Below are positions 3,047 through 16,335 of a stretch of DNA of 47,510 nucleotides, piece by piece. Each line of letters starts with the position of its first letter. Position 1 is the stretch's first letter. The notes under the pieces are model-generated. The model had not been told where the DNA came from, did no database searches, and worked only from the letters and a program-made list of their open reading frames with translations. The stretch comes from an uncultured Granulosicoccaceae bacterium (GTDB lineage: Bacteria; Pseudomonadota; Gammaproteobacteria; CALCKW01), in contig CALAMQ010000111.1 of NCBI GenBank assembly GCA_937925815.1, positions 1-47,510 on the forward strand, read 5' to 3'. The translations under genes and the position numbers were made by a program.

Positions 3047-3114
3047 ATTTTAATATTTGTAAAACTCAACGCCGTATGGGTACACTGATCGCCAAGTTTT
3101 ACCAATATTAAAAT
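3047..3114. promoter_or_regulatory. Twin palindromic operators and promoter of the XRE-cupin regulator and importer-hydantoinase operon
   Basis: Two 20-base elements (3047-3066 and 3095-3114) are inverted repeats of each other with 19 of 20 matches. Each is itself a palindrome of the form TTTTA-N7-TAAAA (3048-3064 and 3097-3113), so these look like two binding sites with centres 49 bp apart. A possible promoter lies between and within them: -35 TTGTAA at 3057-3062 and -10 TACACT at 3081-3086, spacer 18. Repressor bound at both sites would cover the -35 and the start region. The ATG of the XRE-cupin gene follows 5 bases after the second site. No clear Shine-Dalgarno is seen. Confidence 0.7.
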
Positions 3115-3119
3115 TCTAC

Positions 3120-3773
3120 ATGACCTCAACACCCGCCCCAACACCCGATTCCCGCCCAAACAACCTGGGCAAACAACTGCGGGAACGCCGCACAGAACTC
3201 GGCCTGACCCTCAAGGACGTCGCTGAACGCGCCGGCTTATCGGTTGGTTTCATTTCATTGATCGAGCGAGACCGCACCGTACCCTCATTGTCTTCGCTGG
3301 TCTCGGTCGCCCGGGTACTCGGCCTGCCGCTTGGCAACTTGCTGGAACGGCCCAGCAATGACTCCCCCCTGACCCGAAGCCAACAACGGCCGGTCTTCAG
3401 CATCGGCGATGGCGACCTGAGTTATGAACGGCTGTCGACCCATTTCCCAGGCAACGTGCTGCGAAGCGTATTGGTGCACGAGCCACCCGGCCACCGCGCT
3501 GAACCCATCAGCCACGACGGCGAAGAGATGGTGTTCGTGATCGCGGGGACGATCACAGTCGAGATTGATCACCAGGTTCACGTCTTGGGCGAAGGCGATT
3601 CTGTCCACTTCGAATCCACGCGAACCCACTCCACTTGGAACCATGGAACGACGACCGCCACAGTACTGTGGGTCGGCACCATGGATGTTTTTGGCGAAGG
3701 CAAAGACCAGGACACCGCGGACCCACTGCACCGCGGCGAACGCAACACCAACGCCCCACACAACGGGGACTGA
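3120..3773 (+). CDS. XRE-family regulator with C-terminal cupin domain
   Basis: A 217-residue regulator. Residues 15-75 are an XRE/Cro-type helix-turn-helix ('LGLTLKDVAERAGLSVGFIS', then 'PSLSSLVSVARVLGLPL'). Residues 115-185 form a cupin sensor domain with 'HDGEEMVFVIAGTITVEID' and 'GDSVHFESTRTHSTWN', the usual small barrel. Such MerR-unrelated XRE-cupin proteins (PuuR-like) commonly repress catabolic or polyamine genes until a ligand binds. The gene begins just after twin palindromes at 3047-3114 and is only 16 bases ahead of the ABC binding-protein gene, so it probably controls itself and the whole operon to 16335. The ligand is presumably an imported amide or its breakdown product (inference). 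Confidence 0.88.
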   Translation: MTSTPAPTPDSRPNNLGKQLRERRTELGLTLKDVAERAGLSVGFISLIERDRTVPSLSSLVSVARVLGLPLGNLLERPSNDSPLTRSQQRPVFSIGDGDLSYERLSTHFPGNVLRSVLVHEPPGHRAEPISHDGEEMVFVIAGTITVEIDHQVHVLGEGDSVHFESTRTHSTWNHGTTTATVLWVGTMDVFGEGKDQDTADPLHRGERNTNAPHNGD

Positions 3774-3789
3774 CTCGGAGATGAATCCC

Positions 3790-5379
3790 ATGCAACGACA
3801 CAAGAAACTGGTACTCGGCGGCGTCGCCGCGGCGGTCATGGCCGTGACCCATGCGGTCTCGGCAGGTGGCGTATTGCGCCTCGACGAAGTCGCAGTCGGC
3901 GAGCTCGATCCCGGCAAAGCCTCGGATTACGCTGATTCGATTCTCATGTTTAACGTCTACGACACCCTAGTGCTACCCGAGCAGGGTGGACCAGGTCTGG
4001 TGCCGCACCTCGCAAAGAGCTGGGAAGCCGACGGCAACAGCTACACCTTCACGTTGCGCGATGACGTGCAATTTCAAAGCGGCAACCCGCTGACAGCCGA
4101 CGACGTCGTGTTTTCACTCGAACGCATGCAGAATCTTGGGCAGGGCTTGTCTTATCTGTTCGCTGGCGTTGAATCCGCTGAAGCCGTAGACGGCAGTACC
4201 GTGCGATTCAATCTCAGCACGCCCTACGCACCCTTTGTCGCGTCTTTGCTAAGGCTCCCCATTGTCGACAAAGCACTCGTCATGGCAAACCTGGGTGAAG
4301 GCGAAGGCGAGATGGGTGACTGGGGGCAGGCTTTCCTAAGCCAGAACGCCGCCGGCACTGGTGCCTACACGGTCAGCTCGCACAACCCGCAAGAAGAAAC
4401 CGTGATGGCCAAGCACGACGGTTACTTCCTCGACATTGCCGACGCCGCACCCGATACCGTTCGCCTGCGTTACGGGCTCGAGCCCGCCACGGTCCGCACC
4501 TTGATCGCACAGGGCGAGCACGACATTTCATCCCAGTGGCTGCCGCCAGAAGTGCTCAAAGCGCTCGCCGGTGACGGCGCACAACTGCTGACCGAAGGTG
4601 GCACCGGTGCGTTTTACGTCAAAATGAACACCACCAAGCCACCGCTTGATGACGCTAACTGCCGCCTGGCTCTGAGCCACGCGTTTGACTACGACGCCGC
4701 GGTGAAAATGATCGCGGTCACCGACGACATCAGCCAGGGCAGCGCGGCGAGCGGCGCGGTGCCGGTCGGCATGCTCGGTGCCAACTCAGCCGACAACATC
4801 CTCAAGCAGGATATGGACGCGGCCAAGGCGGCGCTCGAACAGTGCCAATACAACCCAGCCGACCACGAACTCGAGTTGTCTTGGATTGCCGAGGTGCCAA
4901 TCGAAGAGCGCTTTGCACTCTTGATGCAGGCGAACTTCACCGCACTGGGTTTCAACGCCAGCATCAAGAAACTGCCGTGGGCACTCTTTGCCGAGCAAGT
5001 CTCCAAACCTGAGAACACGCCACACATCTCGCAGCTGTTCGTCAACGCCGTCACCGGCGACCCCGACACACTGCTGTATGGCATGTACCACTCGGGTTCA
5101 GCCGGCACCTGGCAGTCTCCTGAGTACCTGAACGACGGCGAAGTCGACTCGCTCCTGGATCAGGGCCGCACGGCGGCTGACCCCGCAGCACGTGCCAGTG
5201 CCTACAGTGCGTTGAACGAACGGCTGATGGCTATCGCACCGACCATCTACGGCTATGACCGTCAGTCGGTGTTTGCGGCCAGCACCCGCGTCAAAGCGCC
5301 TGCGCTGTCCGACCCCGCGCAGGCTTTCGGACTCGACGGCATGGGATTTAGCTTCCGTTTGATGGAAGTTGCCGAGTAA
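3790..5379 (+). CDS. Peptide/opine-type ABC transporter substrate-binding protein (SBP_bac_5)
   Basis: A 529-residue periplasmic binding protein of the DppA/OppA class. It starts with a signal peptide (charged 'MQRHKK', hydrophobic core to 'AVSAGG'). It has family patterns such as 'LVPHLAKSWEADGNSYTFTL' and 'DDVQFQSGNPLTADDVVFSL' near the N-terminus. ATG 3790 is preferred over ATG 3781 because CGGAG at 3776-3780 is then 9 bases upstream rather than touching the start codon. It is followed by two permeases and two ATPases, giving a complete importer. Being in one operon with HyuA/HyuB suggests a cyclic amide, hydantoin or modified peptide as ligand; this is inference, since this class binds varied ligands. 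Confidence 0.92.
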   Translation: MQRHKKLVLGGVAAAVMAVTHAVSAGGVLRLDEVAVGELDPGKASDYADSILMFNVYDTLVLPEQGGPGLVPHLAKSWEADGNSYTFTLRDDVQFQSGNPLTADDVVFSLERMQNLGQGLSYLFAGVESAEAVDGSTVRFNLSTPYAPFVASLLRLPIVDKALVMANLGEGEGEMGDWGQAFLSQNAAGTGAYTVSSHNPQEETVMAKHDGYFLDIADAAPDTVRLRYGLEPATVRTLIAQGEHDISSQWLPPEVLKALAGDGAQLLTEGGTGAFYVKMNTTKPPLDDANCRLALSHAFDYDAAVKMIAVTDDISQGSAASGAVPVGMLGANSADNILKQDMDAAKAALEQCQYNPADHELELSWIAEVPIEERFALLMQANFTALGFNASIKKLPWALFAEQVSKPENTPHISQLFVNAVTGDPDTLLYGMYHSGSAGTWQSPEYLNDGEVDSLLDQGRTAADPAARASAYSALNERLMAIAPTIYGYDRQSVFAASTRVKAPALSDPAQAFGLDGMGFSFRLMEVAE

Positions 5380-5391
5380 GCGAAGCGAACT

Positions 5392-5430
5392 GGGCCAGCG
5401 CTGTATTTTCCGCAGCCTGGCCCCTCTTTT
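5392..5430 (+). terminator. Stem-loop with U-rich tail between binding-protein and permease genes
   Basis: GGGCCAG-c-GCTG (5392-5403) pairs with CAGC-CTGGCCC (5413-5423), an 11-bp stem with one bulged base and a 9-base loop, followed by CTCTTTTCT. It lies in the 107-base gap between the binding-protein and first permease genes. It looks like a partial terminator or 3' stabilising hairpin that would leave the binding protein more abundant than the membrane parts. A similar element occurs in the second importer operon at 18714-18765. Confidence 0.6.
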
Positions 5431-5486
5431 CTAACAATCCACCCCGCACCAACACAGTGCCGGGGTGCCTCTGAGAGGGATATTGC

Positions 5487-6512
5487 GTGATCGCGTTGAC
5501 GCGCCTGATTGCCAAACGGCTTGCCACCGCGTCTCTGGTTCTGATCGGTGTGTCGATGCTGATCTTCGCCATTGCGCGAGTCATTCCGGGCGACCCCGCG
5601 CGCATCGCGCTCGGCCCCAACGCAACTGATGAACAACTTGCGAAGCTTCGTGCCGAGCTGCGGCTCGACGACTCTTTGCCCGCACAGTACGCGCACTTTG
5701 TCTCCGAACTCCTGCAGGGTGACCTCGGTATCTCGCTCTACACCAACCGCCCAGTGACCACCGACATTGCGCAGTTCCTGCCAGCAACGCTCGAACTCGT
5801 GTTGGTCGCTGGCACCATGATGGTACTGATCGGCTTGCCACTTGGCATGCTCTCAGCCCGTTACGAGGGCAAGTGGGTCGACAACCTGATCCGCATCGTG
5901 TCCTTGCTCGGCGTCTCCGCACCAAGCTTCGTGTGGGCCGTGATATTGATGCTGCTGTTTGCCTTCTACCTGCCGTTCTTCCCGATCGCTGGTCGCATCA
6001 GCGAACAATACGCAATCGACCCGGTCACGGGATTCTTGTTGATTGACACCTTGCTCGCAGGAAAACCCTGGGCCTGGCTCGACGCGGCTTGGCATATTGC
6101 GCTGCCTGCTTTTGCGCTCGCGTTATCAGGCATTGGCCAGGCCGCACGCTTGACCCGCGCCAATATGGTAGAGACCTACAACACGCCCTATATCGAGATG
6201 GCACGAAGCTACGGGTTCAGTGAGTCGCGTATCGCGCGGCGCTACGCTTTTAAACCCTCACTGATCCCATCGCTGACCATCATCGGTCTCGACTTTGCCG
6301 CGATGCTCGGCAACGCCTTTCTAGTGGAAGCCGTGTTCGCCTGGCCCGGACTCTCCCGCTACGGAGTGGCCGTGATCCTGCGCAAAGACCTCAATGCCAT
6401 CCTCGGCACTGTGCTTGTGATCTCGGCAACCTTTCTCATCATCAACATCATCGTCGACTTGCTGATCGCCTGGCTCAATCCGCGCATTCGACATGCAGAG
6501 CAAAAGCCGTGA
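5487..6512 (+). CDS. ABC transporter permease, DppB-like
   Basis: A 341-residue inner-membrane permease with about six helices. The N-terminus 'RLIAKRLATASLVLIGVSML' and the following 'RVIPGDPARIALGPNAT' are the hallmark of the DppB/OppB subfamily. The cytoplasmic EAA loop that docks the ATPases is near residues 230-250 ('ARSYGFSESRIARRYAFKPS'). The GTG start has GAGAGGG about 9 bases upstream at 5472-5478. Its stop overlaps the next permease start by 4 bases (GTGA), so the two subunits are translationally coupled. It should pair with the DppC-like protein in one heterodimeric channel. Confidence 0.92.
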   Translation: MIALTRLIAKRLATASLVLIGVSMLIFAIARVIPGDPARIALGPNATDEQLAKLRAELRLDDSLPAQYAHFVSELLQGDLGISLYTNRPVTTDIAQFLPATLELVLVAGTMMVLIGLPLGMLSARYEGKWVDNLIRIVSLLGVSAPSFVWAVILMLLFAFYLPFFPIAGRISEQYAIDPVTGFLLIDTLLAGKPWAWLDAAWHIALPAFALALSGIGQAARLTRANMVETYNTPYIEMARSYGFSESRIARRYAFKPSLIPSLTIIGLDFAAMLGNAFLVEAVFAWPGLSRYGVAVILRKDLNAILGTVLVISATFLIINIIVDLLIAWLNPRIRHAEQKP

Positions 6513-7342
6513 AACGCATCATCGCCATCTTGCTGTTGAACCCCATGTCTCTGCTCGGTGTGGTGCTGGTGTCCGCCGTCATCTGCGGAGCGGTCTTTGC
6601 CGACTGGATAGCGCCCTTTCCGGAACACCGGGGCGCGGTTGTCGATTTCTCGAATTTCAACCAGCCGCCGAACTGGCCTTACATCATGGGCACCGACCTC
6701 GTCGGCCGTGACATCTTCAGCCGCATCCTCTACGCCTACCGAATCTCACTGTTGCTTGGCGTGGTGGTGCTAGTGATTGCTGTGCCAATCGGGGTGATCA
6801 GCGGCCTCGCCGCAGGCTACCTCAAGGGCTGGCCGAGCTTTGTGATCATGCGCATCACAGATGTCTTCCTCTCCATCCCACCACTGGTGCTCGCAATGTC
6901 CATGATGGGGCTGCTCGAGCCGACGCTGATCAACGGCATGCTCGCGGTCACTGCGATGTGGTGGCCGTGGTACACGCGTCTCGTCTACAACGTCACGCGT
7001 GCGGAAAAGCAAGAGGGCTATGTCCTCGCCGCCGAAACCCTCGGCGCGTCGACGCCGCACATCTTGTTTCGCGAAATCCTGCCAAACTGCCTGCCGCCAA
7101 TCCTGACCAAGATGACGCTCGACTTTGGCTTCGTGATCCTGATCGCATCCTCCTTGTCATTCCTCGGGCTGGGTGTTCAACCTCCAACCCCAGACCTCGG
7201 CTCAATGGTGGCTGACGGCGCAAAGTACTTGCCCGATTCCTGGTGGCTTACGGTCTTTCCCGGACTTGCAATATTGGTGGCGGTATTCGGCTTCAACCTC
7301 ATCGGCGACGCGCTGCGCGACATTCTCGGTGCCGAATCGTGA
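6509..7342 (+). CDS. ABC transporter permease, DppC-like
   Basis: A 277-residue inner-membrane permease, partner of the preceding DppB-like protein. Features typical of the DppC/OppC subfamily are 'HIMGTDLVGRD'-type sequence near residues 50-62 (here 'YIMGTDLVGRDIFSRILYAY') and the EAA loop 'AAETLGASTPHILFREILPN' near 175-194. The C-terminal 'FPGLAILVAVFGFNLIGDAL' is also a family hallmark. About six membrane helices are visible. GTG start at 6509 overlaps the previous stop; its own stop overlaps the GTG of the ATPase gene, so the chain of coupling continues. Confidence 0.92.
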   Translation: MKRIIAILLLNPMSLLGVVLVSAVICGAVFADWIAPFPEHRGAVVDFSNFNQPPNWPYIMGTDLVGRDIFSRILYAYRISLLLGVVVLVIAVPIGVISGLAAGYLKGWPSFVIMRITDVFLSIPPLVLAMSMMGLLEPTLINGMLAVTAMWWPWYTRLVYNVTRAEKQEGYVLAAETLGASTPHILFREILPNCLPPILTKMTLDFGFVILIASSLSFLGLGVQPPTPDLGSMVADGAKYLPDSWWLTVFPGLAILVAVFGFNLIGDALRDILGAES

Positions 7343-8220
7343 ACACGCCAACACTCGCCATCGACAACCTCAATCTCAGCTTCAAGGGCCTCTTATCCCG
7401 CACCCAGGTACTCCACAGCGTGTCATTGAACGTTGAGAAAGGTGAGAGAGTCGCCTTGGTTGGGGAGTCAGGCTCGGGCAAATCTGTGCTCGCACGCCTC
7501 GTGCTCGGACTGCTGCAAGATCAGCGCGGTGTCGAGGTGAGCGGTCGCATTGGCTTTGCCGGCACCGAACTCGATCAGCTCTCGCGCGCTGCCCGCCGAG
7601 CCCTGCGCGGCCGCGACATGTCGATGATATTTCAAGACCCAACGTCCTCTTTGAACCCCATGTTCACCATCGGCAATCAATTCCACGAGGTATTGCAGCG
7701 CCGCACACCCGACCTCGGCACCGGTCAGGCACAGGACACCGCACGCAGCTGGCTCGACCGGGTATCCATTCCCGACACCGATCGCGTGCTCGCGTCCTAC
7801 CCCTTCCAACTCTCCGGTGGCATGAACCAACGCGTGATGATCGCCATGGCACTGGCCAACAACCCGACACTCTTGCTCGCCGACGAGCCAGGCACTGCAC
7901 TTGATGTCACCGTCCAGGCTCAGACGCTGGAGTTGATGCGCGCACTTGCGGAGGACGTCGGCACAGCGGTGTTGTTCATCTCGCACAACCTCGGGGTGGT
8001 TCGCGAGTTTGCCGACCGGGTCTACGTCATCCACCGCGGCCGGATCGTCGAGAGCGGTTCGACAACCGCCGTATTTGACAACCCCGGACACCCATACACT
8101 CAAGCGTTGCTCGCCGCCATTCCACGCATCACCGGCGACGGCATTCCCGACTTGCCCGAACAGATTGATCTCAGTCACCCAGCCGTGCACCACAACACCG
8201 GACCCGCAGGCCATGACTGA
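7339..8220 (+). CDS. ABC transporter ATP-binding protein, DppD-like
   Basis: A 293-residue cytoplasmic ATPase. Walker A 'GESGSGKS' is near residue 42, the Q-loop '[16 protein letters not shown]' near 100, the signature '[15 protein letters not shown]' near 160, and Walker B '[14 protein letters not shown]' near 180. The C-terminal '[12 protein letters not shown]' is the oligopeptide-importer (OppD/DppD) tail. GTG 7339 overlaps the preceding stop (GTGA) and is chosen over longer upstream readings because homology to the family begins here. The invariant DEPT of most members reads DEPG in this protein, a mild departure just after the catalytic Glu. It pairs with the next gene product. Confidence 0.92.
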
Positions 8221-9031
8221 CCCCATTCTCAGCACGCACGCCCTTGGCAAAACCTTCCAAGTGGGTAAACAGCCTGTGCGCGCGCTGGCGGACATTGATT
8301 TATCTCTCCGGCGTGGCGAGTGCCTGGCAGTTGTCGGCGAATCCGGCAGCGGCAAGAGCACCCTCGCCAACCTGATTCTCGGCGTGCACGCACCAACACA
8401 CGGCGAAGTCAGACTCGACAATACGCCGCTGCCAGCGGCGCGCGCGCTCGCACACCGAAAGCGCATTCAACTGGTGCAGCAGAATCCCCTCTCTGCGCTC
8501 AACCCGAAACGCAGCGTGCGTGCATCGTTGCGTCTTGCACTCGATATCCACGGCATTGGCACGCCGCAAAGCCGCCGCGACCGTATCGACGCGTTGTTGA
8601 CCGATGTCGGACTCGACCCGGCGCTCGCCGACCGCAGACCCGCCGCTCTCAGCGGCGGCCAACGGCAACGGGTTGCGATTGCCCGCGCACTCGCCCCGCA
8701 AGCCGACATCATCGTCCTGGACGAGCCCACTTCCGCGCTCGATGTGCTCGTTCAAGCCCGGGTACTCGCCTTGCTCAACTCACTTCGGGTGCAGCACGGC
8801 TTGAGCTATCTCTTCATCACGCACGACCTCGCCGTGGTGCGCAATGTTGCAGACCGCGTGGCCGTGTTTGAAAACGGTCAGCTGGTTGAATTGCAGGCCA
8901 CAGCAGACCTCTTTTCCCGCCCCCAGGCAGACTGCACTCAACGGCTGCTTGCGGCAGTGCCGGTGGTGAGCCAGGCAGAACTCACTCTGCGGGATGCGCT
9001 TTCAAACAGGAGTAGCCATGACGAACTGTGA
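8213..9031 (+). CDS. ABC transporter ATP-binding protein, DppF-like
   Basis: A 272-residue ATPase, the second nucleotide-binding subunit of the importer. Walker A 'GESGSGKST', Q-loop 'LVQQNPLSALNPKRSV', signature 'LSGGQRQRVAIARALA', Walker B 'IIVLDEPTSALDVLVQA' and switch His in 'FITHDLAVV' are all intact. ATG 8213 lies inside the end of the previous gene (8-base overlap) and starts at the usual family position; longer upstream readings belong to the previous gene's shadow. It ends at 9031, 14 bases past the start of the GAF gene, so the operon continues without a gap. Confidence 0.92.
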   Translation: MTDPILSTHALGKTFQVGKQPVRALADIDLSLRRGECLAVVGESGSGKSTLANLILGVHAPTHGEVRLDNTPLPAARALAHRKRIQLVQQNPLSALNPKRSVRASLRLALDIHGIGTPQSRRDRIDALLTDVGLDPALADRRPAALSGGQRQRVAIARALAPQADIIVLDEPTSALDVLVQARVLALLNSLRVQHGLSYLFITHDLAVVRNVADRVAVFENGQLVELQATADLFSRPQADCTQRLLAAVPVVSQAELTLRDALSNRSSHDEL

Positions 9032-9539
9032 CCCTTTGGCTGATGCCATCGCATCCACCCAAAGCCAACCCAACACCAGCTGGCGCGCGCTCGATGCACT
9101 CGCTCAACGCACGGTTGGGGCAAAGCTCTTCACCGCCATGACCTTCGACGCCCGTACGGGTCTTGCCAGCCGCGTCTACACCAACGACCCCGACAGCTAC
9201 CCCGTTGCCGGCACCAAACCCATCGAACCAAATGCTTGGACGGCGCAGGTTATCGATCAGGGCCAGACCTTTGTCGCCAACGACATTGCCGCCATCGCCA
9301 ATGTGTTCAGCGACCACGAACTGATTCAATCACTCGGCTGCGAATCGGTGGTGAATGTACCGGTGTTTGCAAACGGCGAAATGCTCGGGTCCATCAACCT
9401 CTTGCACGAGGCAGGCTATTACACCCCTGCGCGGGTTGCCGACGCCCAGACGCTGACCTTGTCGGCCTGCGCCTGTTTTTTGTTTGCCCGCCTGTTGGCC
9501 CACACAGCCACTATTGACTCGATTGGAGACTCTCAATGA
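9018..9539 (+). CDS. GAF-domain protein of the hydantoinase operon
   Basis: A 173-residue soluble protein made almost wholly of one GAF fold: N-terminal helix, 'LFTAMTFDARTGLASRVYTN' strands near residues 38-57, 'VANDIAAIANVFSDHELI' near 93-110 and 'SVVNVPVFANGEMLGSINLL' near 116-136. No catalytic or output domain is attached. GAF domains bind small ligands; stand-alone GAF proteins recur beside hydantoinase/ABC-importer genes, but their job there is not established. ATG 9018 has AGGAG at 9008-9012 in front; its stop overlaps hyuA (ATGA), so production is coupled to HyuA. It might sense or carry the substrate (inference). Confidence 0.82.
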   Translation: MTNCDPLADAIASTQSQPNTSWRALDALAQRTVGAKLFTAMTFDARTGLASRVYTNDPDSYPVAGTKPIEPNAWTAQVIDQGQTFVANDIAAIANVFSDHELIQSLGCESVVNVPVFANGEMLGSINLLHEAGYYTPARVADAQTLTLSACACFLFARLLAHTATIDSIGDSQ

Positions 9540-11617
9540 CCACCCCCACACTGCGCGTTGCAACCGACGTCGGCGGCACATTCACCGATCTGGTCTGCTT
9601 TGAGACCGACGCCGAGACTGGCCAATCCCGCATCACAACTGCCAAGTCCGACACCACGCCACCCAATTTCGAGCAAGGCGTACTCAATGTGCTGAAAAAG
9701 GGCGGCGTGAACGCGGCCGACATCGGCTTCATTGCCCACGGCACAACGGTTGTGATCAACGCCCTGACCGAGCGCAAAGGCGTGAAGGTTGGCCTGATCA
9801 CCACCGAGGGATTCCGAGACACACTCGAGATCGCGCGTGGCAACCGGCCGGATTTCTTCAACCTGCACTACCAAAAGCCCGCGCCTTTCGTGCCGCGGCA
9901 CCTGCGCCGCGAGTTGCCGGGCCGCATGAGCTACAAAGGCGAGGAAGCAACTCCACTCGATTTATCCGGGCTTGCCGGCATCCTTGAGGATTTTCAGTCA
10001 GAGGGCGTCGAAGCGATTGCCATCTGCTTCCTGCACAGCTACGCCAATACCGCACACGAAGTCGCCACGCTCCATGCCGTCAAGGCGGCCTGGCCAGACG
10101 TCGCGGTGGTGTCCAGCCACCAGATCACGCGCGAGTGGCGCGAGTACGAACGCAGCAACACCACCGTACTGTCGGCGTATGTACAACCCGCGGCAGAGCG
10201 CTACCTAAACCGCCTCGATACCGGACTGCGCGAGCAGGGATTCACTGGCCGCCCGTACATCATGCAATCCAATTGCGGCGTCGATTCCCTGAGCGCTGTC
10301 GCACGCACCCCGATCACCATGGTGGAGTCCGGCCCGGCATCGGGATTCTGGGGCGCCGCTGAACTTGGCAAATTGATTGGCGAACCCAACGTTCTCGCGC
10401 TCGACATCGGCGGCACCACCGCCAAGTGTTCGCTGATTGAAAACGGCCAGGTCCGCATCATGACCGACTACTGGATCGAGCGCGACGCGAAATCCGCGGG
10501 CTACCCGATCATGGTGCCAGTGGTCGATCTGGTCGAGATCGGCAACGGCGGCGGTTCCATCGCCTGGGTCGACGACTTCGGCAAGTTACACGTTGGCCCA
10601 CAGTCAGCCGGAGCACTGCCCGGCCCAGCCGCTTATGGCAAGGGCGGCACCAAAGCGACCACCACCGACGCCAACCTCTGGCTCGGGCGCATCAATCGCG
10701 ACTACTTCTGCGGCGGCGACCTCGCCGCCGACATGGCAGCCTGCGAGGCCGCGCTCAAGGCGGTTGGCGATAAGCTCGGGGTCAGCGTCGACGACGCCGC
10801 GCGCGGCATCGTGCGCATCGCCAACAACAACATGGTCAACGCCCTGAAGCTCGTCTCGCTGAACCGTGGCTTCGACCCACGCGACTTCACCTTGATAGCC
10901 TTTGGCGGTGGCGGCGCCATGCACGCAGTGGCTCTCGCGCAGGAGCTTGGGGTCAAGAAAGTGGTCGTGCCAGCCGCCGCATCGGTGTTCTCTGCATGGG
11001 GCATGATGATGTCGGACTTGCGGCGAGACTATTTCGTCACTCAGCTGGCAGACGTCTCCACAGGCTCCGCCGATCTGATTGAATCCGTGTTCGCATCCGC
11101 TGAAGACAGCGCGGCGAGCCAGTTCATTGATGAGGGAATCGAGCGCAACCAGGTGCAGTTCACGCGCTATGGCAAATTCCGCTACCAAAACCAGGAACAC
11201 ACCACAGAGGTGGAGCTGAGCGGCCCCGTGACAGACGCCAACCTCGCCGAGATCGCGGCGCGTTTCCACGACACCTACGAACGCGAGTACACCTATCGCC
11301 TGGATGCCCCCGTAGAGATGGTCGGCATCCACTTGGTTGCCACCGCCGCCGTTGGCAAGCTCGAAATGCAAGCTCGTGACACCACAACCACTGACGCCTC
11401 AACCGCCATCAAGTCAGAACGCGACATCGACTACGCCCTCGAAGGTTGCCACACAGCGCAGTGTTTTGATGGCGACAAGCTCGAGCCCGGCATGACACTG
11501 ACCGGACCTGCGATAGTCGAAGACGCTGGAACCACAATTGTCATTCACCCGGGAGATGCCGTGTCGGTTGATGGCTATGGCAACCTCCACATCGTTCTGG
11601 CTGGAGCAGCACAATGA
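9536..11617 (+). CDS. hyuA: Hydantoinase/oxoprolinase family protein, subunit A
   Basis: A 693-residue protein of the ATP-dependent hydantoinase/5-oxoprolinase A family. The ASKHA-type phosphate-binding loop 'ATDVGGTFTDLVCFE' is at residues 8-22, and the second ATPase motif 'LALDIGGTTAKCSLIENG' near 285-302. The 'GNGGGSIAWVD' loop and 'ARGIVRIANNNMVNAL' helix are also family hallmarks. With HyuB it opens five-membered cyclic amides (5-oxoproline, N-methylhydantoin, D- or L-hydantoins) at the cost of ATP; related pairs also form acetone carboxylase-like enzymes. Length is normal for the A subunit. ATGA overlaps link it to the GAF gene before and hyuB after. The exact substrate cannot be read from sequence. 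Confidence 0.92.
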   Translation: MTTPTLRVATDVGGTFTDLVCFETDAETGQSRITTAKSDTTPPNFEQGVLNVLKKGGVNAADIGFIAHGTTVVINALTERKGVKVGLITTEGFRDTLEIARGNRPDFFNLHYQKPAPFVPRHLRRELPGRMSYKGEEATPLDLSGLAGILEDFQSEGVEAIAICFLHSYANTAHEVATLHAVKAAWPDVAVVSSHQITREWREYERSNTTVLSAYVQPAAERYLNRLDTGLREQGFTGRPYIMQSNCGVDSLSAVARTPITMVESGPASGFWGAAELGKLIGEPNVLALDIGGTTAKCSLIENGQVRIMTDYWIERDAKSAGYPIMVPVVDLVEIGNGGGSIAWVDDFGKLHVGPQSAGALPGPAAYGKGGTKATTTDANLWLGRINRDYFCGGDLAADMAACEAALKAVGDKLGVSVDDAARGIVRIANNNMVNALKLVSLNRGFDPRDFTLIAFGGGGAMHAVALAQELGVKKVVVPAAASVFSAWGMMMSDLRRDYFVTQLADVSTGSADLIESVFASAEDSAASQFIDEGIERNQVQFTRYGKFRYQNQEHTTEVELSGPVTDANLAEIAARFHDTYEREYTYRLDAPVEMVGIHLVATAAVGKLEMQARDTTTTDASTAIKSERDIDYALEGCHTAQCFDGDKLEPGMTLTGPAIVEDAGTTIVIHPGDAVSVDGYGNLHIVLAGAAQ

Positions 11618-13266
11618 CCGACCACGATCCAATCACACTCGAAATCATCCAGAACTCGCTGCAGGCCACCGCCGACGAGATGTTCGCCGCGATGCGCAAA
11701 ACCGCCATGAGCTCGATCATCTACGAAGTGCTCGACATGGGCACCGGCATCCTCGACAGCAAGGGCGAGATCGCCTCGAGCGGCGCCGGCATCCCGGCGT
11801 TTATCGGTGTGCTCGACAAAATGGTCAAGGTGCTGCTCGAAAAATACGACCCCAGTGATATCGAAGCGGGCGATGTGTTCGTCACCAACGACCCCTACTA
11901 CGGCGGTGTCACCCACCTCAACGACATCATCATCGCCATGCCGGTCTTTGCCGACGGCCGCGTGATCGCATGGACAGCCAACATTGCCCACAACTCCGAC
12001 GTCGGCGGCATGGCACCGGGCTCACTGACAGGTGAGGCAACCGAGATTTTCCAGGAAGGCCTGCGGCTGCCCGCGGTCAAGCTCATCTCTCGCGGTGAGA
12101 CCGTGCGGTCGGTGATGGACATCATCACGGTCAATTCCCGCATGCCCGATGTGCTCAAGGGTGATGTTTGGGCGGGCATCGCCTCTGCGCGTATTGGTGC
12201 ACGGCGTCTCGTAGACCTCGCGACCAAGTACGGCACCGACACCTTTGAATACGCCATGCACGATTTCATGGACTTCGGCGAACGCTGTTCGCGCGCCGAG
12301 CTCGCCAAGCTGCCAAGTGGCAGTTGGTCGCTCGAAGAGGAACAAGACGACGGCAGCTTCTACCGCGTCACGGTGTCAATCGCGGCAGACACCTTCACCA
12401 TTGACCTCAGGGACAACCCGCCACAACTGAGCAATCCGGTCAACGCGGTGCGCGACGGCGTGATGGTCGCAGCGCAAATGCTGTTCAAATCAATCACCGA
12501 CCCCTACTCACCCTGCAATGGCGGCAGTTTCCGCCCAATCGAACTCATTACCGAACCCGGCACCGTGTTTGATGCCCAGGAGCCGGCGCCCATCGGCTTT
12601 TACTATGAGGTCGAGCTCCGGGTCTACGACCTGATCTGGCGTTGCCTCGCGAAAGTGATTCCCGAGCGACTCGCGTCCGGGCACTTCGGCTCCGTGTGTG
12701 GCACCTTCATCGGTGGCATTCACCCAGACACAGGACGGCAATACACCATCATCGAACCGCAGCTTGGCGGCTGGGGTGGGCGCAATGGCGCCGACGGCAA
12801 CAGCGCGATGTTCTGCGGTTTTCACGGCGAGACTTACAACTGCCCAGCGGAAATCAACGAGGCCCGCAACGGTCTCTGGGTCGACCAAATGGCGCTCAAC
12901 ACGGCCCCCGGTGGCGAGGGCAAATACACCGGTGGTCGCGGCATCGTCATGGATTACCGCATCCGCAATGACAATTGTTTCCTGACCATGGGCTACACAC
13001 GATCGAAATTCGGCCCCTGGTCGCTCGAAGACGGCGCCGAGGGATCGCCCAATTTCTGCGAGGTCTACCCTGTTGACGGCGAGATGCAAACCTACAGCTT
13101 TGTCTCCGGGCTGACCGTCAACACCGACGACGTGGTTCGGGTCATTACCGGCAATGGCGGCGGCTTCGGTGACCCGACCCAACGCGACCCTGAGCGCGTT
13201 GCAGCCGACATTAAAAATGGACTGGTGACGGCAGAACACGCGGCCGAGATCTACAAGCACTCATGA
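11614..13266 (+). CDS. hyuB: Hydantoinase/oxoprolinase family protein, subunit B
   Basis: A 550-residue HyuB-family subunit. Typical stretches are 'ITLEIIQNSLQATADEMF' at the N-terminus, 'GDVFVTNDPYYGGVTHLND' near residues 88-106, 'EIFQEGLRLPAVKL' near 145-158 and the C-terminal glycine-rich 'GNGGGFGDPTQRDPERVAAD'. It partners HyuA in ATP-dependent opening of cyclic amides; HyuB carries the hydrolytic part. The start overlaps the hyuA stop by 4 bases. A second, diverged HyuB gene follows 12 bases downstream. This copy keeps the full C-terminal tail, so it is the more likely dedicated partner of HyuA. Confidence 0.92.
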   Translation: MTDHDPITLEIIQNSLQATADEMFAAMRKTAMSSIIYEVLDMGTGILDSKGEIASSGAGIPAFIGVLDKMVKVLLEKYDPSDIEAGDVFVTNDPYYGGVTHLNDIIIAMPVFADGRVIAWTANIAHNSDVGGMAPGSLTGEATEIFQEGLRLPAVKLISRGETVRSVMDIITVNSRMPDVLKGDVWAGIASARIGARRLVDLATKYGTDTFEYAMHDFMDFGERCSRAELAKLPSGSWSLEEEQDDGSFYRVTVSIAADTFTIDLRDNPPQLSNPVNAVRDGVMVAAQMLFKSITDPYSPCNGGSFRPIELITEPGTVFDAQEPAPIGFYYEVELRVYDLIWRCLAKVIPERLASGHFGSVCGTFIGGIHPDTGRQYTIIEPQLGGWGGRNGADGNSAMFCGFHGETYNCPAEINEARNGLWVDQMALNTAPGGEGKYTGGRGIVMDYRIRNDNCFLTMGYTRSKFGPWSLEDGAEGSPNFCEVYPVDGEMQTYSFVSGLTVNTDDVVRVITGNGGGFGDPTQRDPERVAADIKNGLVTAEHAAEIYKHS

Positions 13267-13278
13267 GCTGAACACGGC

Positions 13279-14850
13279 ATGGCGAGCGCTCCGCACGACC
13301 CCATCACCTTGCAGGTAATCCACGCGAGCCTGCAGGCGGCGGCAACAGAGATGTTTGCGGTGCTGCGGCGCACCGCCATGAGCCCGATCATCTACGAAGT
13401 GCTAGACGCAGGCACCGCCATCACCACTGCGCGCGGTGAGCTGGTGTGTTCCGGCGCCGGCATCCCGACCTTCGTCGGCGCGCTCGACAAGGCCGTCGCC
13501 CATCTCGCCTCGTCGCATGCCGACACCACACTACCGGGCGACGTCTTCATCACCAACGACCCGTCTTACGGCGGTGTCACGCACCTCAACGACGTGGTGA
13601 TCGCCGAGCCCATCCACATCGACGGCGTCGTGATCGCCTGGGCCGCGTCGGTTGCGCACTGGAGCGACATCGGCGGATTGACAGCGGGCTCGATGGCGGT
13701 CGACGCGCGCGAGATTTTTCAGGAGGGCTTGCGGCTGCCCGCCGTGAAGCTGATTGACGCTGGCACACCCATCCAGGGCGTGTTCGATATCGTGCGCGCC
13801 AACTCACGCCAACCCGACACCACACTCGGCGACCTCTGGGCGCAAATCGCCGCGGGCCGACGGGCTGCCAAACGCATCACAGCCGTCGCCAAGGCTTATG
13901 GTCTCGACGCCTGGCAGATGGCGCTGGACGCGGCTTTTGATGCCGATGAATCGCGCGCGCGGACAGGCCTGGCGACACTTCCGCAAGGGCGCTACAGCCT
14001 GAGCGCAGTCCAAGACGACCAGTCAACCTGGACCGTCCACGTGCACATCAAATCCGACCGCTTCACCGTGGACCTGCGCGACGGACCGGACCAGATCGAC
14101 TCGCCATACAACACCAGCCGCGACAGCGCGACCATCGCCGCACAGATGTTGTTTAAGGCTTTGTGCGACCCCACACGGCACGCGAGCGCGGGGTCATTTC
14201 GCCCACTGGAGATTCTGACCCGACCGGGCAGCCTGTTCGACCCCACGGAAACAGCGCCGCACGGGTTCTATTTCGAGACCCGAATCCGGTTGCTCGACCT
14301 GTTATGGCAATGCCTGGCACCGGCGTTGCCCAACGCCCTGCCAGCGGGACACTTCGGCACCATCGGCGCGACAGTGATCGCGGGCAAGCACCCCGACACC
14401 GGGCGGCGCAGCACGCTGGTGGAACCACAGATGGGCGGATGGGGCGCCACCCACGAACGCGACGGTCAGAGCGCGCTCTTCTCAACCAACCACGGTGACA
14501 CCTTCAACTGCCCCGCCGAAATCACCGAGGCCCGCCACGGCATTGATGTGCGTTGGCGACAGTTGTCAGCGAAGGCATGCGGGCCGGGCTTGCATCATGG
14601 TGGACGCGGCCTGGACACCTGCTACGCCGCGCGCGCGCCGGTGACTGTTGCAGTCGGGTTCAGCCGCAACAGAGAGCCGGTCTGGGGCACCCAAGGTGGC
14701 GGCGCAGGCGACTGTAACACCGTCACCCTCACACGCACCTCCGGTGACACCGAACAGGTCGCCTTCGCAAGCGGCCTCGAACTCAACGCCGGTGACAGCA
14801 TTCGCGTCGAAACCGCGAGCGGCGGCGGCTGGGGAAAACCGGCAGACTGA
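13279..14850 (+). CDS. hyuB: Second hydantoinase/oxoprolinase subunit B paralogue, short C-terminus
   Basis: A 523-residue HyuB-family protein, clearly homologous along its length to the preceding gene product (shared blocks include 'MFA..RRTAMS.IIYEVLD', 'TNDPSYGGVTHLND' and 'EIFQEGLRLPAVKLI') but with many substitutions, roughly half of positions by eye. It ends at 'SGGGWGKPAD' and lacks the 25-30 residue tail that follows the glycine-rich loop in the first copy and in the family generally. Start ATG 13279 is 12 bases after the previous stop, with no clear Shine-Dalgarno. Either a second HyuAB complex shares one HyuA, or the two B subunits form a mixed complex; both are inference. Confidence 0.88.
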   Translation: MASAPHDPITLQVIHASLQAAATEMFAVLRRTAMSPIIYEVLDAGTAITTARGELVCSGAGIPTFVGALDKAVAHLASSHADTTLPGDVFITNDPSYGGVTHLNDVVIAEPIHIDGVVIAWAASVAHWSDIGGLTAGSMAVDAREIFQEGLRLPAVKLIDAGTPIQGVFDIVRANSRQPDTTLGDLWAQIAAGRRAAKRITAVAKAYGLDAWQMALDAAFDADESRARTGLATLPQGRYSLSAVQDDQSTWTVHVHIKSDRFTVDLRDGPDQIDSPYNTSRDSATIAAQMLFKALCDPTRHASAGSFRPLEILTRPGSLFDPTETAPHGFYFETRIRLLDLLWQCLAPALPNALPAGHFGTIGATVIAGKHPDTGRRSTLVEPQMGGWGATHERDGQSALFSTNHGDTFNCPAEITEARHGIDVRWRQLSAKACGPGLHHGGRGLDTCYAARAPVTVAVGFSRNREPVWGTQGGGAGDCNTVTLTRTSGDTEQVAFASGLELNAGDSIRVETASGGGWGKPAD

Positions 14851-14889
14851 GCCGCTCGGCTTGGTGTCGCCGGCACGACGGCATACCAT

Positions 14890-16335
14890 GTGGACACTCA
14901 CACAACCGCACCGGTGCGACACGTGACCCGCGACATCCCCGCAGCCGTCGCTGCCTTGCAGGCCCATTTCGGTGAGCGCGCGAGCAGCGGCCTTTCCCAA
15001 CGCGAGCAACACGCCCACACCACCACTTGGATCGCACCACAGCTGCCTGACTTGGTGGTCTTTGCCGAATCCACAGAGGATGTTCAACACGCGGTTCAGA
15101 TCTGTGCTGAACAACGCTGTCCCATCATCCCGTTTGGGGTTGGCACGTCATTGGAGGGGCAGCTCAATGCCCCTGAGGGCGGCATCAGCATCGACTTCAG
15201 TCGCATGGACGCGGTGCTGGACATCAACGCCGAAGACCTCACCGTCACCGTGCAACCGGGCATCACCCGCGAGGCGTTGAATGTTGCCTTGCGCGACACG
15301 GGGTTGTTCTTTCCAATCGACCCCGGCGCCAACGCCAGCATTGGCGGCATGACCGCCACCCGCGCGAGCGGCACCAACGCCGTGCGTTACGGCACCATGC
15401 GCGAAAACGTCATGGCGCTAGAGATTGTCAATGCGCAGGGGCAGATCGTGCGCACCGGCACCCGCGCGAAGAAAAGTTCAGCGGGCTACGACCTCACGCA
15501 CTTGATGGTGGGCTCCGAAGGCACACTTGGTATCACCACCGCTATCACCTTGCGCTTGCAAGGCGTCCCCGAACGCATCGTCTCGGGCAGCGCCACTTTC
15601 CCAAGCATTGATGCCGCCTGTAAAACCGTGATCGACACCATTCAGCTAGGCTTGCCTGTCGCACGCATCGAACTGCTCGACCCCATGCAAGTGCAAGCCT
15701 GTAACCAATACTCGCAGCTAACCTTGCCAGAGGCCCCACTGTTGCTGGTTGAATTTCACGGCAGTGACGCCACCGTCGACGAGCAGCTCGTGCAGTTTGG
15801 TGAGCTCGCAGCCGACCACGGCTGCAATCAGATTGATACCGCGGATTCCCTGGAGGAGCGCAACCGCCTGTGGCAGGCGCGGCACGACGCCTACTGGGCA
15901 GCGCGCGCGCTGAAGCCTGGCTGCACAGCGCACTCAACCGACGCCTGCGTGCCGATCTCGCGCCTCGCCGAGTGCATCAGCGAGACCCGCGAAGACCTCG
16001 ACGCCAACTGCCTCACCGCCCCGATCCTCGGGCACGTTGGCGACGGAAACTTCCACGTGTTGCTGTTGCTCGACGAGTCCGACGCGGATGAAATCTCCCG
16101 CGCCAAAGGCGTAGTGGAGCGGCTCGCAGCGCGCGCAATTAACATGGGCGGCACCTGCACAGGTGAACACGGCATCGGCCAGGGCAAACAGCGCTACTTA
16201 CGCGACGAACTCGGCGACGCGGTACCGATGATGGCCGCGATCAAACGCGCGCTCGACCCGGACAACATTCTCAACCCCGGCAAGATATTCGCGCTGGACA
16301 CCGGCGGCACTCAAGCATCAGGTGGCACTGATTGA
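14890..16335 (+). CDS. FAD-linked 2-hydroxyacid dehydrogenase (D-lactate dehydrogenase/GlcD type)
   Basis: A 481-residue flavoprotein of the FAD_binding_4 plus FAD-oxidase_C family. The FAD-binding PP-loop is near residues 75-90 ('PIIPFGVGTSLEGQ'), followed by 'DPGANASIGGMTATRASGTN', the mark of the LDHD subgroup. The C-terminal half has 'GHVGDGNFHVLLLL', 'GTCTGEHGIGQGKQRYL' and 'LDPDNILNPGKIF', which bind FAD/metal and substrate. Such enzymes oxidise D-2-hydroxyacids (lactate, glycolate, 2-hydroxyglutarate) and pass electrons to quinone or cytochrome. GTG 14890 is used; a nearby ATG is out of frame. It is last in the hydantoinase operon, and its final 25 bases overlap the convergent racemase gene. 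Confidence 0.9.
   Translation: MDTHTTAPVRHVTRDIPAAVAALQAHFGERASSGLSQREQHAHTTTWIAPQLPDLVVFAESTEDVQHAVQICAEQRCPIIPFGVGTSLEGQLNAPEGGISIDFSRMDAVLDINAEDLTVTVQPGITREALNVALRDTGLFFPIDPGANASIGGMTATRASGTNAVRYGTMRENVMALEIVNAQGQIVRTGTRAKKSSAGYDLTHLMVGSEGTLGITTAITLRLQGVPERIVSGSATFPSIDAACKTVIDTIQLGLPVARIELLDPMQVQACNQYSQLTLPEAPLLLVEFHGSDATVDEQLVQFGELAADHGCNQIDTADSLEERNRLWQARHDAYWAARALKPGCTAHSTDACVPISRLAECISETREDLDANCLTAPILGHVGDGNFHVLLLLDESDADEISRAKGVVERLAARAINMGGTCTGEHGIGQGKQRYLRDELGDAVPMMAAIKRALDPDNILNPGKIFALDTGGTQASGGTD

Follow-up and report, generated by a model that had tools for sequence, protein, structure and literature searches.

Putative paired operators of an XRE-cupin regulator at the promoter of an ABC importer-oxoprolinase operon

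Introduction

XRE-cupin proteins that have been characterized so far are local repressors that act on palindromes in core promoters (PMC7901475; DbuR, PMC12724383). Among them are PsdR of Pseudomonas aeruginosa, which represses mdpA and dppA3, further repressors of the same species such as PauR and ErfA, and DbuR of Pseudomonas putida. The P. aeruginosa study describes three consensus sequences as mutually quite different (PMC7901475). We analysed a stretch of 47,510 nucleotides from an uncultured Granulosicoccaceae bacterium, termed the window here, that encodes an XRE-cupin regulator at the head of a run of transport and catabolic genes (Table 1). Our literature searches on the operon or the motif returned nothing direct, and a layout of two sites around a single promoter was likewise not found described in them.

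Table 1. Positions in the window of the sites, the candidate promoter and the genes of the co-oriented run
Feature	Position	Strand	Remarks
Left operator (putative)	3048..3064	.	core TTTTAATATTTGTAAAA, within 20-base element 3047-3066 ATTTTAATATTTGTAAAACT; sister species identical
Candidate promoter TTGTAA-18-TACACT	3057..3086	+	weak, 8/12; hexamers shared with sister species L015
Right operator (putative)	3097..3113	.	core TTTTACCAATATTAAAA, within 20-base element 3095-3114 AGTTTTACCAATATTAAAAT; conserved in sister species
XRE-cupin regulator, 217 aa	3120..3773	+	HTH_3 residues 20-71, Cupin_2 118-185
Family-5 solute-binding protein, dipeptide/oligopeptide-type ABC transporter	3781..5379	+	after regulator in 55/72 loci, 68-97% identity
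ABC permease, DppB type	5487..6512	+	conserved with regulator
ABC permease, DppC type	6509..7342	+	conserved with regulator
ABC ATPase, DppD type	7243..8220	+	mechanical ORF; true start probably inside
ABC ATPase, DppF type	7946..9031	+	mechanical ORF; true start probably inside
GAF-domain protein	8994..9539	+	adjoins HydA also in L013, L043, L079
Hydantoinase/oxoprolinase subunit A	9536..11617	+	under NCBIfam caprolactamase alpha cut-off
Hydantoinase/oxoprolinase subunit B, copy 1	11614..13266	+	
Hydantoinase/oxoprolinase subunit B, copy 2	13279..14850	+	
FAD-linked oxidase (GlcD-like)	14890..16335	+	ends co-oriented run

Results

The first-pass annotation had described two 20-base elements as inverted copies of each other, and this holds to the base: the left element is identical to the reverse complement of the right one at 19 of 20 positions. 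The pattern TTTTA-N7-TAAAA reported inside each element is borne out as well, both cores being perfect, and each core agrees with its own reverse complement at 12 of 17 positions, made up of the TTTTA/TAAAA arms and one pair within the N7. The centres of the two cores lie exactly 49 bp apart, as had been claimed. Six bases separate the end of the right core from the regulator ATG, and this distance is kept in the sister species. Nowhere else does the window hold a site scoring 9/10 or more. Under a first-order Markov model, a perfect site is expected 0.003 times in the window and 0.22 times over the 3.56 Mb of the genome; the genome has three, namely the two of the window and one upstream of a paralogue of the regulator. 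The reversed pattern, used as control, occurs six times in the genome, hence a single site could be due to chance. The pair is not, since the pair pattern is present once in this genome and its reversed control is absent. Taken singly, the sites would be weak evidence, unlike the pair and its position. When one mismatch is allowed, the genome holds 32 places versus 54 for the reversed control, so that no wider regulon can be claimed past the second site of the paralogue.

The protein encoded next to the sites combines an N-terminal XRE-type helix-turn-helix domain (Pfam HTH_3, 9.4e-13) with a C-terminal cupin domain (Cupin_2, 1.2e-16), the arrangement that defines XRE-cupin proteins. Its HTH helices are predicted with high confidence, the recognition helix at about residues 42-49, and in its cupin domain H132, E136 and H170 do not vary across 38 homologues. 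The matches of a Foldseek search include 1y9q, an HTH_3-family regulator, with a low overall TM-score; in general the fold search returned cupin and HTH resemblances at low TM-scores and gave no clue to the ligand. With 72.5 bits against an equivalog cut-off of 211, the protein does not qualify as PuuR (NCBIfam NF007408). A palindromic site is found in the core promoter beside the regulator's own gene, the symmetry of the site agrees with a dimer, and perfect sites in the genome occur only at the regulator gene and its paralogue, which at the level of sequence is the picture of a local regulon.

Conservation was assessed in 72 homologue loci that came from a protein-only search, blind to the motif, and that belong mostly to Rhodobacterales and Rhizobiales with some Granulosicoccaceae; sites were sought from 300 bases upstream to 80 bases into the matched region. 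A perfect site is present in 62 of the 72 homologues and a site of at least 9/10 in 68. Among 3230 control tiles drawn from these loci, the counts are 0 and 14, respectively. Paired sites, 45-53 bp apart with a mode of 49-51, occur in 44 of the 72 homologues and in 22 of 31 clusters formed at 70% identity, and in none of the control tiles. The other 28 homologues have one recognisable site or none, and in some of them the right site alone remains, over the start region. Two sites are therefore not obligatory. The first-pass annotation had named a lack of conservation upstream of orthologues as grounds for giving up the motif; what we find is a motif conserved there in Alphaproteobacteria and Granulosicoccaceae. 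Within the genus, four genomes encode six XRE-cupin homologues, the window's protein included, the other five being 51-94% identical to it, and all six have two upstream sites with spacings of 49, 49, 50, 52, 50 and 49 bp. The consensus of the family is TTTTA(G/C)-N5-(C/G)TAAAA, and the A6 form of the window is a lineage variant of it.

A reciprocal search covered 29 whole genomes with such a regulator and found 24 pairs in 23 genomes, with no pair for the reversed control. Many of these genomes had been picked for having the pair, and the informative point is that the pair occurs nowhere else in them: every one of the 24 lies directly upstream of a regulator gene, including both copies in the genome with two pairs. 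In a sample of 398 genomes from the phylum, the pair pattern was found in the window's genome and two others only, where the matches look like chance hits in A/T-rich stretches. In a set of 397 genomes, all from one further order, an independent group of homologues with a GFISQ helix carries sites or close variants, and the more distant XRE-cupins of the same genomes (about 38-42% identity, helix SVGYLSQVERD) have neither a perfect site nor a pair. Two diverged homologues show variant double operators; counted from the matched start, the pair lies at -165/-120 in L124 and at -169/-120 in L125. The variants read TTATAG-N5-CTATAA and GTTTAG-N5-CTAAA(A/C), with spacings of 45 and 49 bp. In L039 (4105-5555) one double operator is common to two divergent regulator copies, the left of which leads into the same ABC operon. 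L059, on a contig labelled Acidimicrobiales (Actinomycetota), matches the proteobacterial loci in regulator, double operator and ABC genes and represents either horizontal transfer or a misbinned contig.

The plausible promoter that had been noted between the sites is weak in the window: TTGTAA-18-TACACT is not among the promoters listed by a consensus promoter scan of the window. What supports it is that the sister species keeps both hexamers while the remaining spacer has diverged, and that orthologues have a clear TTGAC. Its -35 overlaps the left operator, and the right operator follows directly after the predicted start at about 3093. TTGAC is found in the spacer of 43 of the 44 pairs at homologue loci; in 34 of the 44 it starts 4-6 nt past the left site, and likewise in 34 of the 44 it starts 27-29 nt ahead of the right site. 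The window's lineage is without TTGAC, and the window and its sister species have the weaker hexamers instead. These distances place the two sites of orthologues astride a sigma-70-like core promoter: the left one ends shortly ahead of the -35, and the right one covers the last part of the -10 together with the start point. In many homologues the start codon lies within the right site. Additional operator copies, 17 bp from the first, are seen in L051 (-76, -59 and -26 relative to the matched start) and L053 (-136 and -119), and in L051 the -35 TTGAC falls inside the additional copy.

Residue 47 in the recognition helix is Q nearly everywhere, and operator base 6 is then G or C. It is L in the window's protein, the sister species, L072 and L079, and in these loci one half-site reads TTTTAA (TCTTAA in L072). 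On the tree, L47 requires two separate changes, so this is a small but independent protein-DNA covariation, resting on two evolutionary events.

A common direction, narrow gaps and a conserved gene order all support the 13-kb operon proposed earlier. Eleven genes run in the same direction from 3120 to 16335, with gaps of at most 39 bases save one of 107, and the overlaps at the ATPase genes are an artefact of mechanical ORF starts. Genes for GAF-HydA, HydA or HydB come straight after the regulator in four further loci of the 72. Both the importer genes and the hydantoinase/oxoprolinase genes downstream are thus conserved along with the regulator. The enzymes score 526.7, 237.1 and 179.8 bits in the NCBIfam caprolactamase (CapA/CapB) test, below its equivalog cut-off of 1000 bits, and are by sequence comparison related to CapA/CapB below the equivalog level. 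Convergent to the operon, the segment 16311-21123 (-) encodes an Asp/Glu/hydantoin racemase and a second ABC transporter with two permeases, an SBP_bac_8 binding protein and an ATPase; these genes possibly have a related role in hydantoin or amino-acid metabolism.

The regulator has only one close paralogue in the window's genome, which is preceded by a perfect site and, at a distance of 49 bp from it, a second site with one mismatch. In two species of the genus, such a paralogue directly precedes putA, here a bifunctional proline dehydrogenase/aldehyde dehydrogenase fusion, and has its own double operator (paralogue L010:8863-9516 (-) with putA L010:5303-8962 (-); paralogue L012:4598-5332 (-) with putA L012:1026-4601 (-)). 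The paralogous XRE-cupin is a candidate putA regulator. For the effector of the subfamily, this position suggests a pyrrolidine- or lactam-like compound.

Discussion

The two palindromes are almost certainly landing sites of the adjacent XRE-cupin regulator. The first-pass annotation had ascribed the motif to this protein, and the assignment is now backed by the conserved site at homologues, by a pair that occurs nowhere else in the genomes searched and by the covariation with the recognition helix. With considerable confidence we read them as paired operators of an autoregulated, effector-relieved repressor that would occlude the promoter of its own operon. One dimer would bind per 17-bp site, as suggested by the site symmetry and by the characterized XRE-cupins. 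With the left site on the -35 or immediately before it, and the right site on the -10 or start point or immediately after, dimers bound at both would enclose the core promoter and deny RNA polymerase access to it. As the operon contains the regulator gene, the loop would be autoregulatory. An imported substrate or its product would then bind the cupin domain and release repression; this effector is probably a lactam, oxoproline or a proline-like compound. Dimer binding, promoter occlusion, autorepression and release by a cupin ligand are inferred by analogy to described systems (PMC7901475, PMC12724383, PMC10965056).

The same protein might use the same sites as an activator or in a dual manner, with effector-bound protein at the left site recruiting polymerase and repression exerted from the right site. 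The left site does end 4-6 nt ahead of TTGAC in most orthologues, an activator-like position, the weak promoter of the window could need help, and the XRE-family protein NceR is reported to activate ompA (PMC10470515). However, all targets of the studied P. aeruginosa XRE-cupins rise in the mutants (PMC7901475), and in homologues with the right site only, the site over the start region is an unexpected place for an activator. We regard activation as improbable. Far less credible is that the inverted copies act not as protein sites but as a hairpin in RNA or DNA, be it an attenuator, a terminator or a cruciform. In the window's genome the two 20-base elements could pair at 19 positions, but the inverted relation is not itself conserved across homologues: core identity is 3.73/7 in inverted comparison versus 3.47 (sd 0.16) with shuffled partners, and no compensatory changes between left and right arms were seen preserved across relatives. 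In orthologues the left site is upstream of the -35 and hence untranscribed, and the conserved unit is each 17-bp palindrome, even where it stands alone; the hairpin was rejected on these grounds. Ownership of the sites by another regulator such as the WYL-type protein at 2255-2941, with an incidental XRE-cupin neighbour, is equally improbable. In its favour, the WYL gene is adjacent in the window and sister species. It is rejected, as a homologue of the WYL gene was undetected in the other 71 fetched loci, most of which keep the site with the XRE-cupin gene, the paralogue before putA also carries the site, and changes at operator base 6 go along with changes in the recognition helix of the XRE-cupin protein.

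A more specific form of the repressor reading would be a widespread subfamily with a roughly 50-bp paired operator that cages the core promoter, in which two dimers cooperate through a cupin-mediated higher-order complex and residue 47 sets operator specificity by reading base 6. We consider this a speculative and rather unlikely extension. If true, cooperating dimers would let one effector give a sharp on-off switch. The variable spacing speaks against dimers touching in strict helical phase, and it follows no strict multiple of 10.5, so that looping is not claimed; the lack of a fixed spacing and the 28 homologues with at most one recognisable site argue against strict cooperativity.

The arrangement recurs across dozens of bacteria from sea and soil, so that the switch is a well-supported but ordinary one: its mechanism is textbook, and local XRE-cupin repressors such as PsdR, PauR and DbuR are already known. 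An XRE-cupin subfamily that has so far gone uncharacterised, and that is met repeatedly in marine Rhodobacterales, Rhizobiales and Granulosicoccaceae, gains an operator motif assigned with confidence, a target operon and a residue that may determine specificity. Thus, the effector, and with it the substrate of a widespread ABC importer-oxoprolinase operon, becomes directly testable.

A computed collection of XRE motifs with 223 clusters likewise treats palindromes upstream of XRE genes as autoregulatory sites and may contain the motif of the window (PMC12565409). PauR, ErfA and the other P. aeruginosa XRE-cupin repressors use palindromic sites, occlude core promoters and have mostly local regulons (PMC7901475), as is proposed for the regulator described here. 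DbuR is similar in being an XRE-cupin repressor with a palindrome over the -10 and an adjacent amino-acid catabolic operon (PMC12724383), but it uses a single 20-bp palindrome of another sequence, AATTCTCATATATTAGAATT, in a divergent gene arrangement. PsdR resembles the regulator described here in its local control of genes for a peptide-type transporter and a catabolic enzyme, and its site TTAAG-N5-CTTAA is also an A/T-rich palindrome with 5-base arms (PMC10965056). Neither core of the window matches that site, and the architecture alone is similar: the arms differ, being TTTTAG-N5-CTAAAA in the family and TTTTA-N7-TAAAA in the window, and while PsdR has its gene between its two sites (PMC7901475), those of the window flank one promoter.
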